DNA from: Oscillospiraceae bacterium
GTDB taxonomy: Bacteria > Bacillota > Clostridia > Oscillospirales > Ruminococcaceae
Assembly: GCA_031285645.1 (NCBI GenBank)
Contig: JAITVU010000046.1
Location: 1-7,052, forward strand
Length of the DNA: 7,052 nt
Direction: 5' to 3'
Of the stretch, positions 5,621-7,052 are shown piece by piece. A program made the position numbers and the translations under genes. The notes beneath the pieces are model-generated. The model did not search any database. It saw nothing but the letters and a program-made list of their open reading frames with translations, and was not told the DNA's origin. Each line of letters starts with the position of its first letter. Position 1 is the first letter of the stretch.

Positions 5621-7052
5621 ATGAGAGACAGGCTGAATGAAATGCTGGCGTCAATAAAGGCCCTGTGGACCAGGGCCACGAAAAAGTCCAGAATAATTTT
5701 TCTTTCATCACTGGTCGGCGTTCTTCTCGTGACGCTTGTATTGGTGCTTATTCTGAACCATACAAATTATGTTCTGCTCTATAACGGGCTTTCCACGCAG
5801 GAGAGCGCAGGCGTGCTGTCCGTGCTGTCCGAGATGGGCGTGGAGCCTCAGATCACGAACGCCGGCGCGATATATGTTCCGGAGCAGGATTTGAACCGTG
5901 TGCGCATGCAGGTGGCCACAAAGGGCTTTACAGGCGGCGCGTTTACGTATGATGTCCTGAAGGAAGCGGGTATGACCGCGACGCAGGCGGATAAAAACCA
6001 GTGGCAGGTCAATCAGCTGCAGGACAGAATTCAGGAGACGATTGAAACTTTTGATGAGATCACACAGGCTGTCGTGACGATCAGCATGCCTCAGCCGAGC
6101 CTCTACACACTGCAAAACGATACCCTGCCCCCGTCAGCTTCCGTAAAAATCACAAAGCGTCAGGGCAAACAACTGAGCGAGGAACAGATACAGGGTATTA
6201 TTAATATAGTAAAAGATTCCGTCGCGGGTCTTACAGAGGAAAACATTTCGATTTCCGACGAGACCGGCGACATAAAGTCGTTGCTTGAATCATACAGAGG
6301 GTCCAGCGCGTCGAAGCTGAACCTGACGGAGCAGGTCGGCAATTCGGTTCGCTCCAATATCATGGCGATGCTTCAGCCCGTGTTTGGCGCGGACAGTGTG
6401 AAAGTGGCGGTTTATCCGGTATTGGATACGAACGCGCAGGTGACGGAATCAACGGATTACGTGCCTTTTGACGAAGAGAATCCGCAGAACAACCCGCTGG
6501 ATTACGCCGAGTACGAGCGCGAGAAGCTGGGCGGCGAGGCCGGCCCCGCGCAAGGGGTTCCGGGGGCCAACGACAACGTCGATGTGCCGCAGTACACGGC
6601 CAGGGACGTGGATGTCGAGGATGCCGATTCATACGCTGTGCGCGATGTTTACGATTACCTTGTGTCTTCGATAAAAAATCAGATTATTAAAGAGGGCTTC
6701 GAAATCACCGATATGACGGCGGCCGTCGTGGTGGACTACAACAGCCTGACGGACAGCCAGAAGTCGCAGCAGATTGAACAGGATGAGCTGAAGGCCCAGG
6801 TCACGGATATTGTGGCCAGAGCGGCCGGTATTCAGGGCGACAATGTCAGCGTTCAGATTATGCAGTTTGCCCGTGCGGCGGTAGCCGTTGGGTTATTAAA
6901 AGGAAAATCTTATTTAAGCATCGGCGCGGTTTCCATGGGTATCATGGGTTCTTACCCGGATATGGCTTTCTATCAGAAATATTTGGGAATGCGCGTGGAA
7001 TTCTGTGATATGTCCGAAATCGAGCGCCGGGTTTCTCAAGGTATTTACGACC
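5621..7052 (+). CDS. fliF: FliF (MS-ring protein), cut near residue 416 and continuing in frame as FucI
   Basis: FliF builds the MS ring in the cytoplasmic membrane, the base for the rod and the FliG rotor ring. GAGGG (5610-5614) lies six bases before the ATG. Residues 25-46 are the first membrane segment (IIFLSSLVGVLLV...). Residues 47-215 cover the ring-building domains, with the conserved PSASVKI (171-177). The extracellular part continues through VDYNS (371-375) to DNVSVQIMQF (407-416), matching the 'vsVq.m.F' end of the periplasmic region. An intact FliF continues with a second membrane segment and a cytoplasmic FliG-binding tail, for a usual total of about 510-560 residues. Here neither appears. 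From about residue 416 the open frame is L-fucose isomerase to the window edge at codon 477. The fliF part is well supported; the joined product is probably not a real protein. Confidence 0.93.
   Translation, partial: MRDRLNEMLASIKALWTRATKKSRIIFLSSLVGVLLVTLVLVLILNHTNYVLLYNGLSTQESAGVLSVLSEMGVEPQITNAGAIYVPEQDLNRVRMQVATKGFTGGAFTYDVLKEAGMTATQADKNQWQVNQLQDRIQETIETFDEITQAVVTISMPQPSLYTLQNDTLPPSASVKITKRQGKQLSEEQIQGIINIVKDSVAGLTEENISISDETGDIKSLLESYRGSSASKLNLTEQVGNSVRSNIMAMLQPVFGADSVKVAVYPVLDTNAQVTESTDYVPFDEENPQNNPLDYAEYEREKLGGEAGPAQGVPGANDNVDVPQYTARDVDVEDADSYAVRDVYDYLVSSIKNQIIKEGFEITDMTAAVVVDYNSLTDSQKSQQIEQDELKAQVTDIVARAAGIQGDNVSVQIMQFARAAVAVGLLKGKSYLSIGAVSMGIMGSYPDMAFYQKYLGMRVEFCDMSEIERRVSQGIYD
6866..7052 (+). 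CDS. fucI: L-fucose isomerase (FucI) internal fragment, both ends missing
   Basis: FucI converts L-fucose to L-fuculose in the cytoplasm, the first step of fucose catabolism. The 62 residues here include KGKSYLSIGAVSMGIMGS (427-444 of the joined frame), then YLGMRVEFCDMSEIERRVSQ and GIYD. As I recall the E. coli protein, the same stretch reads FARAGLAV-MKGKSYLSLGGVSMGIAGS, LGMKVQAVDMTELRRR, KIYD, starting near residue 162 of 591. So the match is specific and begins close to the boundary between the first and second FucI domains. The catalytic metal-binding residues lie further downstream, beyond the edge. No start codon or ribosome site belongs to this fragment. TTA codons appear three times and GGA twice here; I saw neither in the fliF part. 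It does not belong functionally with the flagellar genes. Confidence 0.85.

Follow-up and report, generated by a model that had tools for sequence, protein, structure and literature searches.

A fliF-fucI reading frame at the end of an Oscillospiraceae contig is very probably a false join

The window, a stretch of 7,052 bases that makes up the whole of contig C120 of an Oscillospiraceae draft genome (G000), ends in a frame that reads as the flagellar MS-ring protein FliF up to about residue 416 and, from about residue 417 until the contig stops, as L-fucose isomerase (FucI). We conclude that the join between fliF and fucI is very probably an artefact rather than a real feature of the genome. 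The frame is, with a high degree of confidence, a false join of two unrelated DNA molecules, probably created when amplification, PCR, or assembly switched between them at a few shared bases. The 477-residue frame (P0001) could pass for a new domain architecture, and the case serves as a warning. We advise against relying on the final ~190 bases of the contig.

Domains of the frame and gene content of the contig

The draft genome comprises 2,244,071 bases in 428 contigs, with a completeness of 70.55% and a contamination of 0.09%. The contig encodes flgL, flgK, flgN, and flgM on the minus strand and flgB, flgC, fliE, and fliF on the plus strand (Table 1); the scores of FlgL and FlgM are under the cut-offs of their curated models. 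The FlgL-like protein of 324 amino acids (positions 32-1006, minus strand) scored 121.4 bits, compared with a curated FlgL cut-off of 127.2, and had no Pfam match at 0.001. Judged from its sequence, it looks like a divergent FlgL.

Table 1. Plus-strand features of the window that bear on the fliF-fucI frame
Feature	Positions	Strand	Basis
flgB	4270..4659	+	NCBIfam FlgB above cut-off; start 4270 was chosen
flgC	4683..5138	+	NCBIfam FlgC above cut-off
fliE, upstream in the fliF operon	5241..5552	+	Pfam FliE, NCBIfam fliE; start 5241 was chosen
fliF codons 1-416, MS-ring protein	5621..6868	+	Pfam YscJ_FliF and YscJ_FliF_C; NCBIfam fliF
Interval most likely to hold the joint: Phe-Ala(-Arg) codons common to both families, probable short microhomology	6861..6874	+	44 FliF and 119 FucI relatives aligned; DNA of 40 FucI rows
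Internal fucI fragment, about residues 163-223 (P0002 numbering), ended by the contig	6869..7052	+	Pfam Fucose_iso_N2

A single frame (5621-7051) is open across the joint to the last full codon. Pfam matched YscJ_FliF at residues 46-218 (E = 1.2e-41), YscJ_FliF_C at residues 251-416 (E = 2.4e-16), where the match reaches the last profile position (147 of 147), and Fucose_iso_N2 at residues 429-477 (E = 1.1e-17), with only the first 49 of the 180 N2 positions present. The NCBIfam fliF model aligned residues 5-418 with profile positions 5-436 of 555 (178.7 bits, versus a cut-off of 129.75), and the NCBIfam fucI model aligned residues 407-477 with profile positions 150-220 of 587. Matches of the fucI fragment to solved FucI and D-arabinose isomerase chains in a phmmer search begin at frame residue 407 to 409. 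Pfam, NCBIfam, and phmmer thus agree with the original prediction, made from the DNA letters and their translation, that one frame passes from FliF to FucI after the residues VQIMQF (411-416).

Both of the domains looked for in FliF, the ring-building YscJ_FliF domain and YscJ_FliF_C, are present, and the FliF part is 56% identical both to P0121 and to the FliF of G002. Residues 1-416 are collinear with FliF (TIGR00206; PF01514, PF08345), and flgB-flgC-fliE precede them, but unlike that family the contig lacks the last ~100 residues and a following fliG. We take the missing residues to be the second membrane segment and the FliG-binding tail. FliF relatives continue for ~100 residues after the common Phe, with a hydrophobic segment among them, at the point where the window becomes FucI. 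Frame residues 408-477 align with residues 154-223 of P0002, a FucI encoded on a 2,290-base contig, with 87% identity. However, unlike FucI (TIGR01089; PF07881, PF07882, PF02952), which has a set of three domains, the window is without the first ~162 residues (P0002 numbering) and hence the N1 domain, and neither the C domain nor the remainder of the protein is reached before the contig stops. The profile matches therefore agree with the earlier view that FliF is missing the second membrane segment and the FliG-binding tail and that FucI is missing its first domain.

These losses weigh against the proposal that the frame encodes a functional FliF-FucI fusion protein. The open frame is all that speaks for such a fusion, and the architecture is in no other listed protein. 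We regard a functional fusion as extremely improbable.

Position of the joint and a likely route to it

To place the joint, the 119 listed FucI relatives were aligned with 44 of the 119 listed FliF relatives, 43 of which have data at the site and were counted by eye. At the position of Met414 there is a Leu in 117 of the 119 FucI relatives. Phe416 is found in both families (42 of 43 FliF and 116 of 119 FucI relatives), Ala417 in 11 of 43 and 112 of 119, and Arg418 in 2 of 43 (P0148 and P0151, which have Phe-Ala-Arg) and 112 of 119, respectively. The DNA of 40 FucI rows, among which at least one locus is represented by two rows (L026 and L074) and two further pairs are alike over the stretch shown, matches the window in 1 row at base 6860, in 2 rows at base 6864, in all 40 at base 6866, and in 35 to 39 at bases 6867-6869. 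Because Met414 and base 6860 disagree with FucI, the sequence can be assigned to FliF up to base 6860. Residue conservation and the agreement with the FucI DNA rows together put the joint most likely at about 6861-6874. The interval of 6863-6871 that had been proposed is slightly narrower. Phe-Ala had been proposed as all that both families could share; Arg418 also occurs in the two FliF relatives named above.

One FucI row (L067, the FucI of G185) has TGCAGTTTGC in common with the window. At the joint this row reads ATTTTGCAGTTTGC, compared with ATTATGCAGTTTGC in the window. The stretch common to the two genes at the joint may be TTTGC or somewhat longer, reaching past Phe-Ala. This estimate is an approximate one, taken from relatives in the two families, both of which have Phe(-Ala-Arg) there.

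The frame is thus FliF to Met414, fits both families at Phe-Ala, and is FucI from about Arg418 through the 178 bases that remain to the end. Because both families have Phe, often followed by Ala, at the joint, the false join likely came about through a switch at a few bases that the two genes share. A fliF-derived 3' end would have annealed, or a read would have overlapped, at a shared stretch, for example TTTGC or the longer TGCAGTTTGC, after which fucI would have been copied or assembled. Whole-genome amplification, library PCR, and assembly are all possible stages for this event, and its product would be a chimeric molecule or read that was retained at the contig end. Under this mechanism, the open frame through the joint would be a one-in-three accident. 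The joint is ~184 bases before the end of the contig, and a foreign piece consisting of these last ~184 bases would fit the size of a short read or insert. With 5 to 14 shared bases, a chimeric molecule or read is a likelier origin than an error of the assembler alone, because the usual k-mers of assemblers are longer.

The probable joining of unrelated segments at a few shared bases would be a likeness to the chimeras that form in phi29 (MDA) amplification and in libraries (Lasken and Stockwell 2007, PMC1855051). In that paper, more than 70% of the junctions in phi29 amplification chimeras were primed at 2 to 21 complementary bases, and in another (PMC4595205) the overlap length in such chimeras peaks at 6 nt. 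However, the fit to the join in the window is not close. According to PMC1855051, 85% of phi29 chimeras are inverted and most join segments within 10 kb, and for segments more than 10 kb apart there were shared bases in only 34.8% (inverted) and 27.6% (direct).

The two genes in related genomes and in the draft

The whole frame was found among 5.77 billion proteins as one sequence (P0001), with FliF and FucI domains side by side, on one 7,052-base contig. Searches of the same proteins with residues 330-477 and with the FliF part, the latter scoring only the 7993 candidates with the most words in common, returned 250 and 542 proteins, respectively. Among the 120 listed from each search, FliF and FucI domains occur together only in the window's own protein.

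FliF is encoded in 8 of the 11 genomes of the genus, the genome of the window included, and FucI, in a frame of 602 to 616 codons, is also encoded in 4 of those 8. The two genes are on different contigs in three genus genomes and on the same contig in G008, a near-closed genome of 2 contigs in which FliF (at 2,262,609) and FucI (at 1,166,263) are 1.1 Mb apart. Nowhere in the 11 genus genomes does fliF adjoin fucI. The join is therefore absent both from the other listed proteins and from the 11 genus genomes, as would be expected of an artefact.

It is also conceivable that a translocation, inversion, or insertion placed the fucI piece downstream of the first three quarters of fliF, in which case both genes would be broken and the cell would probably be nonmotile. 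The openness of the frame through the joint is consistent with such a rearrangement, as is the result that searches of the draft, 70.55% complete and with contigs shorter than 3 kb masked as N (8 of 8 fetched), found neither fliG and flhA nor a second or intact copy of fliF or fucI. However, because the draft is incomplete and these short contigs are masked, the absences prove little, and the empty search for fliG is uninformative. The rearrangement is further disfavored by the location of the join at a contig end and by its uniqueness among the listed proteins.

The genes that follow fliF in relatives also bear on this alternative. On one contig each of G008, G002, G001, and G010, fliF is followed by flgE-like, FliM/FliY, flhA, and flgG-like genes. 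In the draft, contig C330 carries flgE-motA-motB-fliM-fliY-cheY-fliO, with the 5' end of flgE lost at the contig start (the name flgE was given from domains and from the place before motA), and contig C106 has a flgG-like C terminus. Because genes found downstream of fliF in relatives persist on these two contigs, a simple large deletion that brought fliF up to fucI is unlikely. We consider a real rearrangement of any of these kinds improbable. Equally improbable is its fuller form, in which fliF of an Oscillospiraceae-like lineage would have received part of fucI, perhaps from a different lineage, so that the MS-ring gene would be truncated and motility switched off.

A false join accordingly remains the preferred explanation. 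The original prediction had ranked an artefact above a rearrangement and a rearrangement above a functional fusion, and this order was borne out by the uniqueness of the join among the listed proteins, its place at a contig end, the lack of adjoining genes in any genus genome, and the downstream flagellar genes on other contigs. A point against it comes from the 48 end frames in 42 unmasked contigs: Pfam scans of 26 of these frames, 4 of them without a match, gave no clear second join of two families, so that the draft shows no obvious abundance of false joins.

Source of the fucI piece and noncoding sequence upstream of flgB

Besides its similarity to P0002, the FucI piece is 82 to 92% identical to P0003-P0007 over 61 residues. 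An owner of the piece was not found among 396 genomes of the family (129 matched, its own included; best non-self match, 71%), in a search of genome contigs from which its own genome may have been excluded (18 loci; best match, 67%), or, with P0002 as the query, among 394 genomes of the order (116 matched at E <= 1e-150; best match, 68%).

The piece is 51 to 61% identical to the four FucIs of the genus. This distance was considered as a sign of foreign origin, but the FliF part is no closer to the FliFs of the genus (39 to 56% identity), and the argument was dropped; that the two parts are equally near their genus counterparts is a further point for a real rearrangement. P0002 is 67% identical to the FucI of G010 and 64 to 69% identical to the FucIs of other family genomes. 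Because the FliF part is equally distant and P0002 is as near the FucI of G010 as it is to other FucIs of the family, a foreign source is not established. Another organism and a distant part of the same genome are both possible sources of the FucI piece.

TTA and GGA occur 3 and 2 times, respectively, in the 61 codons of the tail, versus 0 and 0 times in the 416 fliF codons. Elsewhere in the window they account for 6 and 5 of the 1793 codons of seven genes and are therefore rare rather than absent. The statement that both codons appear only after the joint is thus accurate for the fliF codons but not for the rest of the window, and an origin of the tail in a different sequence background is mildly supported. 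As a codon background, we took 2527 overlapping 61-codon stretches from the 42 other unmasked contigs of the draft. As many TTA and GGA codons as in the tail were present in 13 of these overlapping stretches, TTA and GGA having been picked after the sequence was seen, and 140 of the 2527 had a codon-usage score equal to or under that of the tail. With that many stretches scoring as low or lower, codon usage was rejected as proof of a foreign source and is at most suggestive. The GC content of the tail is at the 14th percentile of the draft stretches, which is not unusual.

An AT-rich gap separates the divergent flgM and flgB operons and contains a perfect sigma-70-type promoter sequence (3778-3806, plus strand; TTGACA-17-TATAAT, 12 of 12 positions) about 460 bases upstream of flgB. 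In all, 7 promoter-like sites were found in the scan, compared with a mean of 3.6 in shuffled sequences. Positions 3776-3846 share 78% identity with positions 11055-11124 of L031, in the flagellar region of G002. This promoter may serve a long flgB leader. Between it and flgB, a hairpin of the form CAACCCG...CGGGUUG followed by a U-rich stretch (4060-4140, plus strand) has a folding z-score of -2.89, with 4 of 200 shuffles folding equally well. No Rfam family matched in the window and the hairpin is absent from the output of the terminator scan, but its form looks like that of a terminator or attenuator.
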